Positions 1 to 5,060 of a stretch of 5,060 nucleotides of DNA are shown one piece after another. The stretch comes from an uncultured Eubacterium sp. (GTDB taxonomy: Bacteria > Bacillota_A > Clostridia > Lachnospirales > Lachnospiraceae): assembly GCA_948759685.1 (NCBI GenBank), contig CAQBGY010000280.1, positions 1-5,060 of the forward strand, read 5' to 3'. The position numbers and the translations under genes are program-made. Each line of letters opens with the position of its first letter. Position 1 is the first letter of the stretch. Under the pieces are notes generated by a model that ran no database searches, was not told the DNA's origin, and saw nothing but the letters and a program-made list of their open reading frames with translations.

Positions 1-103
1 TTTTTTGTGCCCAAAATGGCCAAAAATTGTGGGTTTTCGGACAGCCTGAGGGGGGGTTCCTAAAATTATAGAAAATGCTATATGTAATTATAGCAAGTGC
101 AAC

Positions 104-1120
104 TTGAAAGGTAAAATCAACAATTCTGTATATGTACACAGCAAGGACATGCTGTTGGAATATATGAGAAATGAGCATGATATATTGGAGTGGAAAGAAA
201 TTTGGAAAAAAGTCGTATTAGATGCTGTTAATAAAGCATATCAATCATTAGAAGAATTTGAGGAGGAATTGAAACAAAAGTGCATTAAAGTTGTATTTTT
301 AATTGATGGTTTAGAAGAGATTTTTCAGCATACGATTTTATCGCAAAATGAAAGAAATGCCGTCGCAGCATTATGCAGGGATTTAATTGATGAAGTGAAG
401 ATATCATATCACAATTTGGGTTTTATGATATTTTTGAGAAAGGATATGGTACGGGACTCGCTGACGATCAATTATGAGCAGTTTCATTCACTCTACCGTT
501 CGGTCGAATTGCAGTGGTCAAGTACGGAAGCATTAAGATTAGCAGCTTGGCTGACTAGTCAGGCTGTATCAGATTTTTATGAGGAGGATGTTCCACTTGA
601 AATGGCGCCAAGAGATGTAATTGACCAGACACTTCATAAATTATGGGGAGTGAAACTTGGAAAGCCGACTTCCAATGAAGCAAATTCATCGAGATGGATT
701 TTGGCGGCATTATCAGATTTTAATGGACAATTACAGGCGCGGGATATCATAAGATTTTTGGAAAAAGCGACTGTAAATGCAGGTAAACCTGTTTATACAG
801 ATAGGTATTTAATGCCTACAGAAATCAAAAAAGCTGTATCAGAATGCTCAACGGATAAGATTGGTGAAATAAGGGATGAAATTAAAGCACTTGGACCAAT
901 CTTTGATAAGCTGGAACATGCGCCAGCAGAAGATAAAATTTTACCATTTTCTGGTGACACATTTCAGCTCACACAGGGAGAAGAGAAAATTATGAAGCAG
1001 GAAGGTTATTTAAGGATAGATAATGATAGGTATTATTTACCCGAGATTATCAGGCACGCCTTAAAATTTAAATATGGGAAAGGCGCCCGTCCCAAGGTAC
1101 TTTCCTTATTACTAAAATAA
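104..1120 (+). CDS. C-terminal part of a large P-loop NTPase (5' truncated)
   Basis: This is the C-terminal portion of a P-loop NTPase. Residues 63-72 (VVFLIDGLEE) form a Walker B-like strand of hydrophobic residues ending in Asp. It is followed by a sensor-like strand GFMIFLRKDMVRDSL (106-120), a conserved WILAALSDFNGQLQARDI block (198-215) and a winged-helix-like tail ending in ARPKVLSLLLK. No Walker A (GxxxxGK) exists anywhere in the frame, so the N-terminal half is missing. From memory, the C-terminal blocks resemble large ParA/MinD-fused or AAA-type ATPases; that family assignment is recall, not a search. The TTG start has no Shine-Dalgarno site, and the frame is open back to position 50, just after an in-frame TGA at 47-49. 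The true protein therefore probably ran further upstream and was cut at a junction near 50-60 or at the contig edge. The C-terminus looks complete. A 52-base gap separates it from the next gene, so the two may be co-transcribed. Confidence 0.7.
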   Translation: MKGKINNSVYVHSKDMLLEYMRNEHDILEWKEIWKKVVLDAVNKAYQSLEEFEEELKQKCIKVVFLIDGLEEIFQHTILSQNERNAVAALCRDLIDEVKISYHNLGFMIFLRKDMVRDSLTINYEQFHSLYRSVELQWSSTEALRLAAWLTSQAVSDFYEEDVPLEMAPRDVIDQTLHKLWGVKLGKPTSNEANSSRWILAALSDFNGQLQARDIIRFLEKATVNAGKPVYTDRYLMPTEIKKAVSECSTDKIGEIRDEIKALGPIFDKLEHAPAEDKILPFSGDTFQLTQGEEKIMKQEGYLRIDNDRYYLPEIIRHALKFKYGKGARPKVLSLLLK

Positions 1121-1172
1121 ATGTCAATTCTATTAATAAGGTTTAGACTAAAAAGATAAGGAATACACAGAG

Positions 1173-1631
1173 ATGAAAAAAGTTGAAAAATATGACGCTG
1201 ATAAACTAGAGTGGAATTTAATTTCGAAGGAAGAGGTTTCATTACTGAAAATGAAGCTTGGAAAAAGCCACAGAAAAGAATCTGACTGGGAAGTCATAAA
1301 GGATATTTTGGGGAGACACAATGTGATTACATTTATTCCGCCCAAAAGGGAGAAAGGGCTTACAACGATTGAAAAGGTACTTTGTGAGAATGGAAATCTG
1401 ATTGTTTTTACAAACATGGAGGACTGTACACGGCATATTCAGATTGTACAGTTCAAAGGGAAATTTCGGAAATATGTCGAGATTGGTTCTATTCCATTTG
1501 CGAATGTTTTGGATATCGCAGACCAGCATGGCATGAATGTTCTTATTGATGTGAATTACGAAGTTAATTGTAAGTGCCTCATGTATGAGTCCAGAGAACA
1601 ACGATTAAAAGCTGTTATCATGACATATTAG
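1173..1631 (+). CDS. SseB-like small protein
   Basis: This is a 152-aa soluble protein with no signal peptide or membrane segment. The ATG at 1173 is supported by AAGGAA at 1158-1163, nine bases upstream. The middle of the protein (residues ~50-120) has an order that resembles the SseB N-terminal domain: a strand VITFIPPKRE, a GNLIVFTNMEDC strand comparable to the 'LPVFTS/D' strand of SseB proteins, and IPFANVLDIADQHGMNVLID comparable to the 'hPFxEVLxhAxExG' helix of that family. The assignment comes from remembered pattern only. SseB-domain proteins are common in Firmicutes and mostly uncharacterised, so no precise role is claimed. The first ~45 residues are charged and unrecognised. It lies directly downstream of the NTPase fragment and ends at a possible terminator, so the two form the first cargo block. 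Confidence 0.65.
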   Translation: MKKVEKYDADKLEWNLISKEEVSLLKMKLGKSHRKESDWEVIKDILGRHNVITFIPPKREKGLTTIEKVLCENGNLIVFTNMEDCTRHIQIVQFKGKFRKYVEIGSIPFANVLDIADQHGMNVLIDVNYEVNCKCLMYESREQRLKAVIMTY

Positions 1632-1651
1632 AAATGAAGATGTCATGCTTT
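1619..1651 (+). terminator. Possible intrinsic terminator after the SseB-like gene
   Basis: CATGACAT (1619-1626) pairs perfectly with ATGTCATG (1640-1647) across a 13-base loop, followed by CTTTTATG and a T-rich stretch. The stem overlaps the stop codon of the SseB-like gene. The stem is only 8 bp with moderate GC and the T-tract is short, so termination would be weak. Confidence 0.4.
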
Positions 1652-1725
1652 TATGTATTAATTTTTTGAATTGGTAAAATATTATAAAAAACCGAATAAT
1701 AAGTTTCTAGTTTTAAACAACTTTT

Positions 1726-1759
1726 ACAAAGTACGTGTCACTACCTTGACTCAAGGGGG
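1726..1759 (+). repeat. 34-bp direct repeat, copy 1, at the SpmA fragment junction
   Basis: Thirty-four bases (starting ACAAAGTACGTGTC, ending in a G-run) are identical to 3380-3413. The repeat lies immediately before the point where recognisable SpmA coding sequence begins. It contains a perfect 13-bp palindrome, CCTTGACTCAAGG (1744-1756), and ends in AAGGGGGG, which can serve as the Shine-Dalgarno site for the ATG at 1770. Its identity between copies contrasts with the diverged coding DNA that follows. A recombination or integration end, or a conserved 5' leader, are both possible. Confidence 0.85.
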
Positions 1760-1769
1760 GCTTAGGGCA

Positions 1770-2081
1770 ATGAACGATTTGGAGGAATTGGAGCGGGAGC
1801 GCGGGAATGGGGAATATATGGACACAAAAACAGCTCCAGCTACCTCAAGCGGTTTTATGGATTTCGGGACACGGACGGCAAGTAATGAAATGTGTACTTT
1901 TCTTGTGATGAATATCTCGTCGCTACAGCTCATACCAGTGAATATTATCGCGTATCGCAGCCAGTATGGGAGTGCCAATCCGGCGGCAGTGATTGCGCCC
2001 GCGATCGTGGCGACGTTTTTTAGTACGGTGGTAGCGGTGTTTTATTGTAAGGCAATGGGAAAACATAGTGTAAAAATTTAG
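1770..2081 (+). CDS. spmA: SpmA C-terminal fragment, copy 1
   Basis: This encodes 103 aa matching the C-terminal half of spore maturation protein SpmA (nucleoside-recognition/Gate family), a membrane protein involved in spore cortex maturation and dehydration. The recognisable part runs from GLRAMNDLEELE, which corresponds to the 'AATPxGLKAM' region of SpmA, through TASNEMCTFLVMN and SSLQLIPVNIIAYRSQYGSA to the last helix. Two hydrophobic segments lie at residues ~41-62 and ~72-93. Intact SpmA is about 195 aa, so roughly the first 100 residues are absent. I chose ATG 1770 because AAGGGGGG lies nine bases upstream; the frame continues upstream to a TTG at 1671 but without a ribosome site and without SpmA similarity. 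Codons are GC-richer (GCG, CCG, ATC) than the AT-rich neighbours. It could be a pseudogene remnant or a short expressed membrane peptide; complementation of a full SpmA by this piece alone is unlikely. Confidence 0.75.
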   Translation: MNDLEELERERGNGEYMDTKTAPATSSGFMDFGTRTASNEMCTFLVMNISSLQLIPVNIIAYRSQYGSANPAAVIAPAIVATFFSTVVAVFYCKAMGKHSVKI

Positions 2082-2190
2082 TTTTTTAAGACAATGATAA
2101 GGATACATATGGGTATGAGCAAAAAATGAAACACGATATGTAATTGCATTATAATCAAAAGAAAATTTAAACTATAGAAAAAAGACGTGG

Positions 2191-2219
2191 TTGAACAGTC
2201 TGTTAATCAATGTTATACT
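2191..2219 (+). promoter_or_regulatory. Sigma-A promoter P1 downstream of SpmA fragment 1
   Basis: TTGAAC (2191-2196) and TATACT (2214-2219) are separated by exactly 17 bases, and a TGT precedes the -10 (extended -10). The same arrangement recurs at 3720-3748 after the other SpmA fragment. It should start transcription near 2226, reading into the small ORFs and the Rpn fragment. The gap 2082-2190 holds no recognisable gene; this ~110-base stretch is absent from the second module. Confidence 0.75.
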
Positions 2220-2328
2220 GTAAATGTGGCATGATATAAAATAAATTTAAAAAGACCTCTGATAAAGAAACTGCTATTTCACATAATTATGTAGTCAGAT
2301 ATTTTGATTTAGTGGAGAAAAACTACTT

Positions 2329-2412
2329 GTGACTGAAAGCTTAGAAAAAGGTTTTTATGAATTTGAGAGAAAATATTTTTCTAAGTATTTTTTAGAGAAG
2401 ACACGGATTTGA
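2329..2412 (+). CDS. 27-aa small ORF downstream of P1
   Basis: GTG at 2329 with GGAG (2314-2317) eleven bases upstream opens a 27-residue charged, aromatic-rich peptide (MTESLEKGFYEFERKYFSKY...). Its TGA (2410-2412) overlaps the TTG of the next ORF in a TTGA junction. It may be a genuine small protein translationally coupled to the next one. It may instead be the first piece of one gene now split by a frameshift, since both pieces have similar Lys/Glu/aromatic composition. I recognise no family. Confidence 0.35.
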   Translation: MTESLEKGFYEFERKYFSKYFLEKTRI

Positions 2413-2627
2413 AATGGAATTATTACCTTATTACAAAATTAGAAAAACAAAAAACGGAAAAAGAACTTTTGTTAAAAGAATGTGTTCATAGAGAGCAGGA
2501 GTTAGAGCAGGAATATAAAAAATCAATGGACGAAAATATTTCTTTTTCAGAGCAGGAATGGGAGGAGTATCAGTTAAAAGCAAAAGGATTACAGGCACTT
2601 AAAAAAATATGGAAAAAGAGTGTGTAG
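2409..2627 (+). CDS. 72-aa coiled-coil-like small protein
   Basis: This is a 72-aa, strongly charged protein, mostly helical in appearance, with heptad-like spacing of Leu/Ile in LITKLEKQKTEKELLLKE and later EQELEQEYKKS. It has no membrane segment. The TTG start at 2409 lacks its own Shine-Dalgarno site and overlaps the stop of the 27-aa ORF, so translation would depend on coupling or reflect a frameshifted gene. The frame is open upstream only back to 2385. Its end overlaps a third small ORF beginning at ATG 2609. I do not recognise the family; it sits in the P1 transcript ahead of the Rpn fragment. Confidence 0.45.
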   Translation: MKWNYYLITKLEKQKTEKELLLKECVHREQELEQEYKKSMDENISFSEQEWEEYQLKAKGLQALKKIWKKSV

Positions 2628-2719
2628 CATTTGTATTGATACAGAATGTTGTGAGACACAAGGAGCGATATGATGTAGGAATAGATGTTTTTATTAAAAA
2701 CATTTTAAAGGACAGGTAA
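2609..2719 (+). CDS. 36-aa small ORF overlapping the coiled-coil gene
   Basis: ATG 2609, inside the end of the 72-aa ORF and in another frame, opens MEKECVAFVLIQNVVRHKER and sixteen more residues, ending in KNILKDR. The start has no clear Shine-Dalgarno site; the preceding bases are an A-run. It could be a coupled small protein or the continuation of the upstream protein after a frameshift. The two explanations cannot be separated by sequence alone. The stop lies 15 bases before the GTG of the Rpn fragment. No known family. Confidence 0.3.
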   Translation: MEKECVAFVLIQNVVRHKERYDVGIDVFIKNILKDR

Positions 2720-2733
2720 ATGACTTATGGCAA

Positions 2734-3237
2734 GTGAGCAAAAAAGGGAAGAAAAACAGCAGTTTAATGGATGCCAATGCAATCCTTCCAGGAGATGATA
2801 CAGAATTGCTTCCAGAAACATATGTGATATTTATTACAGAAAATGATGTGCTAGAGGGGAATCTCCCTATTTATCATATTGATAGGACAATTAAAGAGAA
2901 CGGAAAAATATTTGATGACGGGGCGCATATTATATATGTAAACGGAGAAATTAAGAACGATACACCATTGGGACGATTGATGTATGACTTAAGCTGTTCC
3001 GACCCGGATAATATGAATTATAAAGAATTGGCCGATCGAGCAAGATACTTTAAAAGAGATAAGGAGGGACAAAAAATTATGAGCAGAATTATGGAAGAAA
3101 TTGTAAATGAAGAAAAGATTGAAGCAGCAAAGCGTATGCTGGATGATGGCGAGTTAACTATTGATAAGATAGCAAAATATTTAGCGCTTCCGATTGAAAT
3201 TGTAGAGAAATTGGCAGACAGTCTGCAACTCGTGTAG
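2734..3237 (+). CDS. Rpn/PD-(D/E)XK nuclease C-terminal fragment lacking the catalytic core
   Basis: This 167-aa protein matches the C-terminal part of Rpn-family recombination-promoting nucleases (the group often annotated as 'PD-(D/E)XK nuclease family transposase'). Diagnostic blocks are NSSLMDANAILPG (8-20), LPETYVIFITENDVL (26-40), LPIYHIDRTIKE (44-55), GAHIIYVNGEIK (63-74), LGRLMYDLSCSDPDNM (79-94) and KELADRARYFK (97-107). A helical tail, RMLDDGELTIDKIAKYLALP, follows at 134-153. In full-length relatives NSSLMDAN comes shortly after the catalytic 'EIQ' motif, so the whole N-terminal nuclease core (~110-120 aa) is missing and only a seven-residue basic leader (MSKKGKK) replaces it. The frame is closed by TAA at 2695-2697, and GTG 2734 is the first start. 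Its ribosome site is poor: AGGACAGG at 2709-2716 is better placed for an ATG at 2727 in a different frame. The product cannot cut DNA. It is either a remnant or a stand-alone regulatory domain. A terminator follows. Confidence 0.75.
   Translation: MSKKGKKNSSLMDANAILPGDDTELLPETYVIFITENDVLEGNLPIYHIDRTIKENGKIFDDGAHIIYVNGEIKNDTPLGRLMYDLSCSDPDNMNYKELADRARYFKRDKEGQKIMSRIMEEIVNEEKIEAAKRMLDDGELTIDKIAKYLALPIEIVEKLADSLQLV
3061..3081 (+). promoter_or_regulatory. Internal ribosome binding site and ATG inside the Rpn fragment
   Basis: AAGGAGGG (3061-3068), a near-perfect anti-SD match, precedes an in-frame ATG at 3079. From that start the frame gives a 52-aa helical protein (3079-3237), beginning MSRIMEEIVNEEKIEAAK. 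In E. coli, Rpn genes are known to encode a small intragenic C-terminal protein that neutralises the nuclease. Caution: the same bases encode Lys-Glu-Gly, so the SD match may be a by-product of coding. Confidence 0.5.
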
Positions 3238-3265
3238 ATGGTCACAAGTGAATAGCTGATTTTAG

Positions 3266-3308
3266 AAAGCAGGAAACCTTTGTATAGGAGAAGTCCTGCT
3301 TTTATTAT
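3266..3308 (+). terminator. Intrinsic terminator after the Rpn fragment
   Basis: AAAGCAGGA (3266-3274) pairs perfectly with TCCTGCTTT (3294-3302). A possible inner CCT/AGG pairing lies within the 19-base loop, and a T/A-rich tail (TTTTATTATAT) follows. It lies 28 bases after the Rpn fragment stop and closes the second cargo block. Confidence 0.7.
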
Positions 3309-3324
3309 ATAGATTTACTTGCTT

Positions 3325-3333
3325 TGGTATAAT
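3325..3333 (+). promoter_or_regulatory. Possible extended -10 promoter before SpmA fragment 2
   Basis: TGGTATAAT is a perfect -10 (3328-3333) with the TGn extension. The -35 at 17-base spacing (TTATAT, 3305-3310) is poor and overlaps the preceding terminator. It would transcribe the 34-bp leader and the second SpmA fragment. I see no counterpart before SpmA fragment 1. Confidence 0.45.
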
Positions 3334-3379
3334 TCGACAATAAAAGAGAGGAAAAATCCATTATTATAAGATGTTTTTG

Positions 3380-3413
3380 ACAAAGTACGTGTCACTACCT
3401 TGACTCAAGGGGG
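3380..3413 (+). repeat. 34-bp direct repeat, copy 2, at the SpmA fragment junction
   Basis: These bases are identical to 1726-1759, including the palindrome CCTTGACTCAAGG at 3398-3410. Upstream of ACAAAG the two loci share only a few T-rich bases (copy 2 reads TTTTTG, copy 1 CTTTT), so the 5' edge of the repeat is sharp. Downstream, SpmA coding DNA follows but is diverged. AAGGGGG lies eleven bases before the ATG at 3424 and can serve as its ribosome site. Confidence 0.85.
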
Positions 3414-3423
3414 ACTGCGGGCA

Positions 3424-3723
3424 ATGAGCGATTTGGAGGAATTGGAGAGGGCGCGTGAAAACAGCGAATATGTAGACGTGGGAGCATCAACTGGTTCTTT
3501 GGGGAGTTTGACAAATTATGGAGCGCGGACTGCAAGCAATGAGATGTGCACATTTCTTGTGATGAATATATCGTCATTGCAGTTAATACCAGTGAATATT
3601 ATTGCCTATCGCAGCCAGTACGGGAGCGCCAATCCGGCAGCAGTCATCGCACCTGCAATTGTGGCAACGTTTTTTAGTACGGTGGTGGCTTATTGCAAAA
3701 TAATGGGGAAAAACTGTAGTTGA
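3424..3723 (+). CDS. spmA: SpmA C-terminal fragment, copy 2
   Basis: This is a 99-aa second copy of the SpmA C-terminal half, cut at the same residue as copy 1. The conserved 55-residue block (3526-3690, starting RTASNEMCTF) is amino-acid identical to copy 1, although 23 codons differ, all synonymously. The linker after DLEELER is variable in length and sequence between the copies, and the tail is shorter (VAYCKIMGKNCS). ATG 3424 follows AAGGGGG and is preferred to the TTG at 3400, which lies inside the repeat. Two hydrophobic helices remain; the N-terminal ~100 residues of SpmA are missing. Its TGA overlaps the -35 box of promoter P2. It is probably a target-gene remnant from a different allele than copy 1, though a short expressed membrane protein is possible. 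Confidence 0.75.
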   Translation: MSDLEELERARENSEYVDVGASTGSLGSLTNYGARTASNEMCTFLVMNISSLQLIPVNIIAYRSQYGSANPAAVIAPAIVATFFSTVVAYCKIMGKNCS

Positions 3724-3748
3724 AGCTCTTGTTAATTGATGTTATACT
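3720..3748 (+). promoter_or_regulatory. Sigma-A promoter P2 downstream of SpmA fragment 2
   Basis: TTGAAG (3720-3725) and TATACT (3743-3748) are 17 bases apart, with the TGT extension before the -10. The spacer shares the TGTTAAT core and the ATGT before the -10 with P1. The likely start near 3755 leaves a ~200-base leader before the DUF2589 gene. Similarity between the two modules fades about 35 bases after the -10 (AAATTTAA(A/T)AAG shared). Confidence 0.75.
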
Positions 3749-3803
3749 AATAATTGGAAATTATTTAAGACAAATTTAATAAGGAATTGTAGGAAAATAA
3801 GTG

Positions 3804-3905
3804 ATGCAGATTGCGCAGGTATATTGTTTTTATAATGGTTTACTGCCAATTATCTATTGGAATAAATTTAATGATGTTGAAAGACTGATAATGATTACTT
3901 TATAA
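3804..3905 (+). CDS. 33-aa leader ORF upstream of the DUF2589 operon
   Basis: ATG 3804, preceded by AGGA (3791-3794) nine bases upstream, opens a 33-residue hydrophobic peptide beginning MQIAQVYCFYNGLLPIIYWN. It lies in the long leader between P2 and the DUF2589 gene. It could be a leader peptide or a small protein, but an ORF of this length is not significant by itself in AT-rich DNA. No family is recognised. Confidence 0.2.
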   Translation: MQIAQVYCFYNGLLPIIYWNKFNDVERLIMITL

Positions 3906-3953
3906 ATATTGCAAGAGAGAAAAAGTCGATAATGATAGAAAGGAGCAAACAAT

Positions 3954-4571
3954 ATGGCAGATTATGGTAATGAAATTTCTTCTATTAGTTTAGGCAGCAT
4001 TATAGGGGGTGCATTAAGTGCAATTGTAGAAGCACAAAGTCAAGCAGCACATACCACAGTTAATTTTATAAATGAAGTTGGCTTTGAAGGAAAACAAGGA
4101 GAAAGAAAACCGGTATATATAGATTTTCAATACGAAAAAATGATTATACCTGAAAAGGAAACTCAGCAGGAAGAAGCAGAAAAACAAAAACAAATTACCT
4201 CTTTAAAAGTACCGCTTTTAACAATGGTGCCTATTCCCTACATAAGAGTAGATGATGCTACAATTGATTTTAATGTAAAAATAAATTCTGTGCAAGAAAC
4301 AAAAACATCATCTGATCTAAACTATGGCGGAAAAACGGAAGCATTTGCTAATTATAATGGATTTCGTTTTAAAACAGGAATTAAATTAAGCGCTTCTATT
4401 TCCAATCAGAAAAAAAGCAGTACATCAGATACCGTAAAAAGAGATTATTCTTTAAATATTCATGTTCATGCAAAGCAAGATGATATGCCTGCTGGTGTAG
4501 AGCATTTATTAGATTTACTTTCTGATGCATCTTCTACAAATACTTATATTGAAAAAATATCTAACAAATAA
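3954..4571 (+). CDS. DUF2589 domain-containing protein
   Basis: This 205-aa protein has the hallmarks of DUF2589. These are an N-terminal small-residue helix SLGSIIGGALSAIVEAQSQA (12-31), then NFINEVGF (37-44), the core KVPLLTMVPIPYIRVDDATI (85-104) continuing DFNVKINSV, a beta-rich section with KLSASIS (144-150), and the C-terminal YSLNIHVHAKQDDMPAGVEH (165-184) leading into a short helix. Length is typical of the family. It has no signal peptide; the N-terminal helix is amphipathic rather than a clear membrane anchor. ATG 3954 has AAAGGAG (3939-3945) eight bases upstream. The biochemical role of DUF2589 is, as far as I know, undefined. It is the first gene of a three-gene operon under P2, and the next protein carries a shortened version of the same core motif, so the two may assemble together (inference). 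AT-rich codon use marks it as accessory cargo. Confidence 0.9.
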   Translation: MADYGNEISSISLGSIIGGALSAIVEAQSQAAHTTVNFINEVGFEGKQGERKPVYIDFQYEKMIIPEKETQQEEAEKQKQITSLKVPLLTMVPIPYIRVDDATIDFNVKINSVQETKTSSDLNYGGKTEAFANYNGFRFKTGIKLSASISNQKKSSTSDTVKRDYSLNIHVHAKQDDMPAGVEHLLDLLSDASSTNTYIEKISNK

Positions 4572-4589
4572 AAGAAAGGGAAATAAATC

Positions 4590-4787
4590 ATGATAACATT
4601 TGGTGAATTTGCAGGATTACTGATAACTGATTTTTTGCAGGCACGTAAAATTGCAGATACTTATAGTGCAGCTTTATCTCAGGAATATTATGTTAATCCA
4701 GTTTTAAAAGGCATGCCTGTTCCACACTATACCATTGATGAAGCAGAGATTGATGTTCCTATGAAAATTATGGGAGTAAAAAAGTAG
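4590..4787 (+). CDS. Small DUF2589-like partner protein
   Basis: This 65-aa protein starts at ATG 4590 with GAAAGGG (4574-4580) nine bases upstream, 18 bases after the DUF2589 stop. Its second half, LKGMPVPHYTIDEAEIDVPM (39-58), aligns by eye with the core LLTMVPIPYIRVDDATIDFN of its neighbour: a Pro-hydrophobic-Pro turn followed by an acidic alternating strand. It therefore looks like a shortened paralogue that keeps the N-terminal helix and the first core strand but lacks the C-terminal beta section and the QDDMPAG motif. Whether it is naturally short or truncated is unclear; the frame downstream codes for an unrelated protein, so no simple frameshift restores it. Function unknown; probably acts with the DUF2589 protein. 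Confidence 0.7.
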   Translation: MITFGEFAGLLITDFLQARKIADTYSAALSQEYYVNPVLKGMPVPHYTIDEAEIDVPMKIMGVKK

Positions 4788-4794
4788 AAATTAC

Positions 4795-5021
4795 ATGAGA
4801 ACAGATTTGCTCATAACACAAACTTTAGTTTATTTTAACAATTTTTTAGAGGAAGAATTTCGTCTTCCTATTTATCAAATTGAGTTATTAAAGGATGATA
4901 CCGGAATTATGGAGTTTGTAACGCATACAGAAAATATGACTCAAGAACAAGCACACTCCTATTTCTTAAAGTTTGGTGTATTAATGTGTTTTATCAAACT
5001 ATTTGGTATTGGAGATATTCA
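4795..5021 (+). CDS. Unrecognised third operon gene, 3' end lost at adapter
   Basis: ATG 4795 lies seven bases after the previous stop and opens a frame that runs to the end of real sequence (75 codons, no stop). The product starts MRTDLLITQTLVYFNNFLEE and contains FRLPIYQIELLKDDTG and a hydrophobic GVLMCFIKLFGIGD near the break. No Shine-Dalgarno site lies at the usual distance (GGGAG at 4772-4776 is 18 bases away), so translation is probably coupled to the upstream gene. I do not recognise the family. The frame continues through the adapter and would add an artefact tail, DRKSTRLNSSHG, which must not be annotated as protein. Confidence 0.6.
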
Positions 5022-5060
5022 AGATCGGAAGAGCACACGTCTGAACTCCAGTCACGGACC
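5022..5060 (+). other. Illumina TruSeq adapter read-through (not biological)
   Basis: From AGATCGGAAGAGC at 5022 through AGTCAC at 5055 the sequence matches the 34-base TruSeq read-1 adapter exactly. The last five bases (GGACC) would be the start of the index. The contig end should be trimmed to about 5021. Confidence 0.98.

Follow-up and report, generated by a model that had tools for sequence, protein, structure and literature searches.

The question raised by a 5,060-nucleotide stretch of DNA from an uncultured Eubacterium sp. of the Lachnospiraceae (contig CAQBGY010000280.1, assembly GCA_948759685.1; hereafter the window) is how two displaced 3' ends of the gene spmA came to stand in a row, each behind the same short leader and each followed by unrelated cargo. 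SpmA functions in spore maturation. The window is probably (roughly 0.75) part of a cassette array behind spmA, with cassettes moved by the three tandem serine recombinases (the triplet) of an element that inserts into this gene. Genomes used for comparison are cited by number (G001 and so on), apart from the isolate Lachnospiraceae bacterium A4 (KE159536.1).

The array in the window and in isolate A4

An identical 34-bp stretch, ACAAAGTACGTGTCACTACCTTGACTCAAGGGGG, occurs at 1726-1759 and 3380-3413 (spacing 1654), and SpmA codons 114-218 follow, at 1749-2063 in the first copy and 3403-3711 in the second. The longer repeat block (184 nt) shows 82% identity and the shorter one (102 nt) 85%. The original prediction, made from the window alone, had described these as same-orientation units with identical leaders and identically cut spmA pieces, and this description holds. 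Positions 49-5021 match A4 at 99.86% identity over 4973 bp, so the tandem arrangement is present in two assemblies; a lone module in a second assembly, as a misassembly would predict, was not what A4 contained.

In A4, an intact spmA of 222 codons (C10:68242-68910) lies upstream of the region equivalent to the window. The first unit after it consists of a leader with only a decayed spmA remnant at 69010, and is followed by a 326-aa open reading frame (ORF), an antitoxin-like protein, and a PIN protein. A leader with piece 1 at 71313 precedes a KGGVGR/STAND ATPase (877 aa) and a 152-aa protein; a leader with piece 2 at 75491 precedes an SMC-like remnant and an Rpn-type nuclease; and a leader with piece 3 at 77145 precedes a DUF2589 protein and then a DUF4135-like protein. 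The window corresponds to this array from within the ATPase to the DUF4135-like ORF and contains the following features, its two pieces being numbered separately.

1-48, no strand: contig-end sequence not matching A4 (the match starts at 49); possible chimera or strain difference
104-1120, plus: first cargo gene of cassette X, encoding the C-terminal portion of a KGGVGR/STAND-type ATPase whose A4 counterpart has 877 aa; STAND/AAA matches below curated cut-offs
1173-1631, plus: second cargo gene of cassette X, for a 152-aa protein without assigned function; homologues in G004, G006, and G405
1726-1755, plus: leader 1, attR half-site P (right end of the serine-recombinase element), terminating ...TTGACTCAAG; from sequence comparison
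1756-2081, plus: displaced spmA 3' piece 1 (codons about 116 to stop), which opens the next cassette
2191-2219, plus: promoter-like TTGAAC-17-TATACT with TG, behind piece 1; same site behind the intact spmA of G004
2409-2627, plus: cassette Y cargo, SMC-like ATPase remnant (428-aa ORF in G004); 65 aa, 90.8% identity in A4
2734-3237, plus: cassette Y cargo, Rpn-type PD-(D/E)XK protein without its N-terminus; G005 homologue matches PDDEXK_2 at 2.9e-7
3265-3303, plus: terminator-like hairpin ending cassette Y; -16.2 kcal/mol, z -3.9
3380-3409, plus: leader 2, attR half-site P; from sequence comparison
3410-3723, plus: displaced spmA 3' piece 2
3720-3748, plus: promoter-like TTGAAG-17-TATACT across the spmA stop codon; same position in G004, G005, G006, G407, and G406
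3954-4571, plus: DUF2589 protein after piece 2; PF11655 at 3.2e-31
4590-4787, plus: 65-aa ORF of unknown function
4795-5021, plus: start of a DUF4135-like protein (306-aa ORF in A4); 5.5e-6, below the curated cut-off
5022-5060, plus: last 39 bases, resembling an Illumina adapter (read-through, not biological); the A4 match stops at 5021

Both contig ends are untrustworthy, with adapter read-through on one side and unmatched sequence on the other. The last part of piece 1 matches the 3' end of the intact spmA of G004 (bins of 88-98%).

The promoters and terminators first proposed for each unit fare less evenly. Sites with 17-base spacing and TG ahead of the -10 box are present behind both pieces, but a consensus promoter scan of the region found 13 against a shuffle mean of 9.8 (sd 2.7), which does not clearly exceed chance. 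Of 31 spmA 3' ends in A4 and relatives, 12 have TTGANN-17-TATACT no more than 200 bp downstream, and in seven of these the site overlaps the stop codon. The hairpin ahead of leader 2 is strong, whereas that ahead of leader 1 is weak (z -0.3).

Among the 38 genomes of the A4 genus, 11 contain a leader (at most two mismatches) with spmA sequence: G001-G007, G405 (a truncated remnant only), G407, G419, and G425. At least two tandem pieces with leaders occur on one contig in G001, G004, G006 (second piece ending at the contig end), G007, and G407 (second piece strongly decayed). Intact spmA is followed by a leader and piece on the same contig in G001, G005, G006, and G407, and outside the genus in G155 and G271. 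The regions behind spmA were compared in 24 of the 38 genomes, some with less than 1 kb downstream, and the other 14 were covered by the leader scan, the SpmA search, and the recombinase search. G001, G005, G006, and G407 carry an intact spmA followed by one to three displaced pieces, in line with the originally proposed stacking of substitute 3' ends at one site.

The leader and the serine-recombinase triplet

Directly before the cut, intact A4 spmA reads ...GGCGACGCCGGCGGGATTAAGGGCGATG and the pieces read ...TTGACTCAAGGGGGA... (alignment of 18 sequences). These bases differ, and the leader is therefore not derived from spmA, nor is it ordinary spmA coding sequence. An exact scan of GTDB contigs with a leader 22-mer found seven places, all titled Lachnospiraceae; with at most three mismatches, it matched 7 of 397 genomes of a family sample, A4 included. 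Leader variants in the family sample precede spmA 3' pieces in G271 (twice), G290, G377, and G155. Variants also precede 3' pieces of other genes, namely enolase (G239) and two different polysaccharide deacetylases (G322), with gene names assigned by reading translations. In an order sample, the leader scan matched 4 of 392 genomes, with G290 and G322 as clear cases, and the leader is rare outside the genus.

Several leader matches were rejected: those in G635, G454, and G322 C98 (order scan) have no recognisable target piece, and those at G002 C101 and C111:8641 and the second leader of G155 have no spmA piece. The variant GTGTCACTAGCTTGTCACTAG in G422, G425, and G431, after which no spmA sequence follows, was set aside as a different repeat; it stands behind a conserved terminator-like stretch in these genomes (L096, L105, L106, L099) and looks like a different element end. 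Viral contigs gave no match to the leader 22-mer, plasmid records gave none, and five phage records were partially similar, none over 80% of the query.

The window has no recombinase, as originally noted, and one was found upstream of the leader in relatives. In G239 and G419, the ORF list shows nothing between the leader and the three tandem serine recombinases ahead of it; a 157-aa ORF intervenes in G290 and an Rpn gene in G007 (isolate COE1). All three recombinases of G290 contain Resolvase, Recombinase, and zinc-ribbon domains (Pfam), and the triplets of G007, G239, and G419 were identified by reading ORFs. At E <= 1e-120, a search of the 38 genus genomes for relatives of G419 recombinase 3 found, besides the protein itself, one in G007 (78% identical); spmA is split in both genomes. 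No recombinase was seen on the stretches of G322 inspected.

Just upstream of the triplet lies a DUF6870 protein, matched by Pfam in G290 and similar by eye in G007 and G419 (ORFs at L068:1697-2026, L046:4830-5111, and G419 C30, reverse complement 3653-3970), which is a candidate recombination directionality factor. In G239, the only Enolase_N match in the 3.4-Mb genome lies in an enolase gene interrupted at the NGG motif, with the left part (C1:2648413-2648802, L161) about 85 kb from the 3' piece at C1:2563786 (L061). Its left-end stretch has ParA/ParB-like ORFs, and its right-end stretch has the triplet and an ORF judged relaxase-like by eye. No relaxase was seen by eye in the G007 element, part of which is masked. 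In G322, the two deacetylase genes (C29:295 and C94:48532; L054, L059; named by eye) differ and share the same leader and the same cut at a GH motif; both contigs end less than 300 bp upstream of the leader.

Split spmA and the left end of the element

A full-length SpmA search found a match in 33 genus genomes out of 38, and in five of them (G007, G422, G419, G003, and G418) the 5' half stops at residues 118-120; the same holds for G290, outside the genus. All six split genes stop at the same Gly codon (about codon 116) and run on into CNTTGAGTTATWATARTGACAGG, the left end (P') of the element, which is nearly the same in all of them. In G007, the halves of spmA lie 28.7 kb apart on one contig; between them are the recombinase triplet, Rpn, and ORFs that by eye resemble ParA/ParB and metal-transport genes. 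Both element ends are on one contig in G007 and on two contigs in G290 and G419; G003 has the left end and leader on different contigs, and G422 and G418 have the left end only. The contigs of G422, G418, and G003 end within about 1.1 kb after the left end. An insertion inside the gene with both ends identified is seen in G007 and G290.

P' is an imperfect inverted copy of the leader. The best 20-nt ungapped match between P and reverse-complemented P' is 13 in G007, 14 in G290, and 16 in G239, values equalled by 88, 32, and 0 of 20000 shuffles; this core test was designed after a gapped test, in which 594 (G007, weak), 176 (G290, weak), and 41 (G239, better) of 2000 shuffles were as good. The inverted arrangement is the layout of a serine-integrase attP. 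On this comparison, the leader is the P half of attP, and each leader with its spmA piece is an attR scar.

Probable movement of cassettes with a spmA tail

Pairwise comparison of 26 leaders separates what lies on either side of the joint. Three pairs within the genus are 96-97% identical over 150 bp upstream, and the identity of their pieces downstream is no more than 77-82%. The pair G007/G377 is a fourth case, with 93% identity upstream and pieces from distant species (the G377 piece is partly masked). As a baseline, 87 pairs of 15 genus leaders with long pieces and unlike upstream sequences average 79% identity in the piece (sd 3.6, range 73-96%), with 11 of the 26 leaders left out as remnants, truncated or absent pieces, or distant species. 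Piece identity of the linked pairs falls within this baseline, so they are no more alike there than unlinked pairs. In 25-bp bins, identity drops at the leader end in G001/G004 and G007/G377 and 25 bp later in G004/G006. Across four pairs, linkage is lost at the leader end or no further than about 25 bp from it. A break at the left end is found in the BrnT cassettes of G005 and G006, which are 84-100% identical per bin after the leader against 46-64% before it.

The same cargo also occurs at differing ranks in the array and shares the preceding spmA tail across species, which with the breaks near the leader further supports stacking. In G407 and G408, BrnT cassette DNA lies behind intact spmA; in G003, G004, G005, and G006 it stands after a displaced piece, and the tails are related; the BrnT ORF itself was recovered in G003 (partial), G004, G006, and G407, and not in G005 or G408. 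The Rpn cassette comes first behind intact spmA in G005 (and in G425 across a contig break), third in A4, and beside the triplet in G007. The ATPase cassette is behind piece 1 in A4 and first in G006, where the cassette X ATPase directly follows intact spmA (96.7% amino acid identity; PADLOC PDC-M28B, 1.6e-16). An AbiLi-like/TOPRIM pair is found in G002, G003, G425, and, without a leader, G430.

Pairwise distances among 18 intact spmA genes correlate at r 0.42 between the end of the 5' region and the start of the 3' region, and at 0.76 between two parts of the 5' region. Replacement of the 3' end would give a weak correlation at the joint, while homologous recombination would give weak correlations both there and within the 3' region. 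Cassettes bring a replacement spmA 3' end and appear to be stacked by site-specific recombination, and homologous recombination also contributes to their reshuffling.

Alternative explanations

A number of observations sit poorly with movement by the triplet. In G004/G006:6790 the two sequences still agree over the 25 bp next to the leader on its downstream side, the leaders themselves differ in G001:8510/G006:5834, and G001:10164/G007:10307 shows no drop at all (81% upstream, 86% downstream). The left breakpoint of the BrnT pair G004/G006 falls about 170 bp into the piece, where homologous recombination could place it, and two parts of the spmA 3' region correlate at only 0.55, so that exchange is not confined to the joint. 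G420, G409, and G430 have related cargo after intact spmA with no detectable leader or piece. At E <= 1e-120, A4 gave no recombinase relative, and neither did 36 of 38 genomes of the genus, including G003, G418, and G422 with their split spmA; only 37 of 46-54 first-look candidates were scored in A4, G007, and G419, which makes the absence in A4 not strict. Several relatives are metagenome-assembled genomes with contig ends at repeats. In G419, the spmA 5' half with P' (C143, L141) has within about 2 kb the genes that flank spmA in G426, and the triplet and 3' piece are on another contig; this locus is rearranged or the bin is mixed.

Several of these points favour a different history, in which the arrays are fossils of repeated element insertion and of repair of spmA by homologous recombination, and the cassettes are not units of movement. 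Each repair would leave element remnants, a P half-site, and the old 3' end downstream. The apparent exchange of 3' alleles among species, the breakpoint inside a piece, the resemblance of the Rpn cargo at the right end of the G007 element to cassette cargo, and the failure to find a recombinase with most arrays all suit this history, which is unlikely without being far-fetched. It does not account for the same cassettes at different ranks in different species, nor for breaks that coincide with the joint, as the G005/G006 BrnT pair shows on its left side and G001/G004 and G007/G377 show on their right. The alternative raised in the original prediction, that the spmA 3' region was duplicated in tandem and then decayed, would explain two similar pieces in the same orientation and the one decayed piece in G407. 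It would not place an identical non-spmA leader at the cut or a like leader before the enolase and deacetylase genes, and it would not link the tail of each piece to its cargo across species; it is thus highly improbable.

A tyrosine recombinase is only slightly more credible as the driver of the array. The 326-aa ORF near the intact spmA of A4, also found in a G271 cassette, gives an integrase-like hint (PHROG integrase, 6.8e-4), and a 360-aa ORF of G271 has a sub-threshold match to Phage_int_SAM_1 (0.0088). By eye, the protein has neither the catalytic Arg nor the HxxR motif, A4 alone carries the 326-aa ORF among the 23 stretches compared, and in split genes it is the serine triplet that accompanies the leader. 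The 326-aa ORF was rejected as the mover. An assembly artefact is suggested by the damaged contig ends and has a negligible chance of being correct, given the A4 match and the tandem pieces in G004, G006, G007, and G407.

Proposed mechanism

Sequence comparison supplies the element ends, the target codon, the split and intact states of spmA, the co-inheritance of cargo and tail, and the breakpoints; from these we infer that the triplet catalyses movement of the cassettes. As for the mobility first proposed for these modules, the triplet, the cargo linkage, and the breaks now speak for it, and the manner in which cassettes are mobilised is a matter of models. An element with three tandem large serine recombinases sits in spmA at Gly ~116, with P' on its left and P on its right. 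Each cassette between successive attR sites starts with a spmA 3' tail, often with a promoter behind it; cargo genes follow (toxin-antitoxin, defence-like, or of unknown function), and another P half-site closes the unit.

Two routes of movement may be envisaged. In model (a), attL may pair with attR1 or with any attR further down. Excision through a distal attR would yield a circle that carries the first cassette to a new spmA, and later excision at the nearest attR would leave an intact chimeric spmA, the cassette, and the old 3' end, which is the A4 layout. In model (b), the triplet would accept non-canonical pairs (attR x attR, attB x attR), and a circle of 3' tail, cargo, and P would insert directly into intact spmA. 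CcrAB of the staphylococcal cassette chromosome (SCC) is reported to use attR x attR, and non-canonical att pairs are thought to allow SCC fusion, according to PMC5595907. In either model the 3' end must travel with the cassette, because otherwise the cell keeps a broken spmA. Selection for whole spmA, and hence for spores, would favour cassettes with a working 3' end. Homologous recombination between 3' pieces would also reshuffle cassettes, and the original combination of spmA tail, cargo, and P site may have arisen when a split spmA was repaired by homologous recombination.

More tentatively, spmA and its downstream attR sites may form an integron-like platform run by visiting serine-triplet elements. 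If so, the 3' third of spmA would be the entry ticket of a cassette, and a sporulating cell would have to choose among stored gene ends, each choice adding, dropping, or exchanging cassettes with defence or toxin-antitoxin genes. Which of attR1, attR2, or later sites is used could be decided when the element is excised in the mother cell, and diversification of the array would then be linked to sporulation.

Relation to known systems

Composite SCC islands are stacks of elements at one gene, some without recombinases, and SCC replaces only the last bases of rlmH. The array likewise is a tandem stack at one gene with recombinase-free units, and in this it is like SCC, which uses Ccr serine recombinases; it differs in its target, spmA rather than rlmH, and in the approximately 300 bp of coding sequence and single half-site in each cassette. 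Integrons use the tyrosine integrase IntI and attC sites. They share short same-orientation cassettes in rows behind a fixed gene and a recombination site at the cassette end, but here the site is half of a serine-integrase site, and each cassette opens with the end of a host gene.

The element itself is of a known type. In integrative and conjugative elements (ICEs) of the streptococcal ConjTn1549/Tn5252 types, a serine-integrase triplet disrupts mutT, traG, or hsdM (PMC4701971). Three adjacent large serine recombinases, as in these ICEs and in integrative and mobilizable elements, are present in the relatives studied here. Shared features are three same-orientation serine recombinases near one end, coding sequences that in some cases separate the triplet from the target, and a disrupted protein gene; the targets here are spmA and, by the same element type, enolase, and the available part of PMC4701971 describes no array of displaced gene ends. 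Sporulation genes are split by gin in gerE (28.6 kb, three serine recombinases; PMC5595907), SPbeta in spsM (PMC4191935), and skin in sigK (PMC5025042). The element of about 29 kb in COE1 is likewise a serine-recombinase element splitting a sporulation gene; spmA does not occur in any of these three papers, and their available parts describe nothing like stacked cassettes that supply replacement 3' ends.

Among open-licence papers, where absence is weak evidence, no report was found of spmA as a serine-recombinase or prophage target (one match, by its title, concerns phage engineering), of three serine recombinases in Lachnospiraceae, or, among the titles listed, of recombinase-free cassettes carrying an approximately 300-bp gene end. 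The target spmA and the recombinase-free cassettes with a large gene end and a single half-site are thus apparently new. They suggest that recombinase-free cargo can stack and move by means of only a half-site and a borrowed gene end. The gene that serves as the site is linked to the quality of spores in gut bacteria. Toxin-antitoxin and defence-like genes are among the cargo, and the order of the array is a readable record of insertions. Two isolates named in public records, A4 carrying the array and COE1 an element still inserted, should allow the mechanism to be tested, provided that the strains can be obtained.

Cargo of the cassettes

Cargo named by Pfam or PADLOC includes a BrnT toxin, a PIN toxin, PDDEXK_2 (Rpn-like), and an AAA ATPase with AbiLi at 2e-30. 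Further cargo comprises RhuM (G155), AAA-ATPase_like/PDDEXK_9 (G271), and the STAND-like ATPase, which is below Pfam cut-offs. Five of 10 PADLOC queries matched at 0.01, one of them weakly (0.0075), and one query was a 24-aa fragment; defence and toxin-antitoxin genes are listed here with no claim of statistical enrichment. The 326-aa tyrosine-recombinase-like protein recurs as a cassette gene in A4 (C10:69377-70357) and G271 (C83; L070:1844-2824), and its 360-aa analogue lies behind intact spmA in G271.

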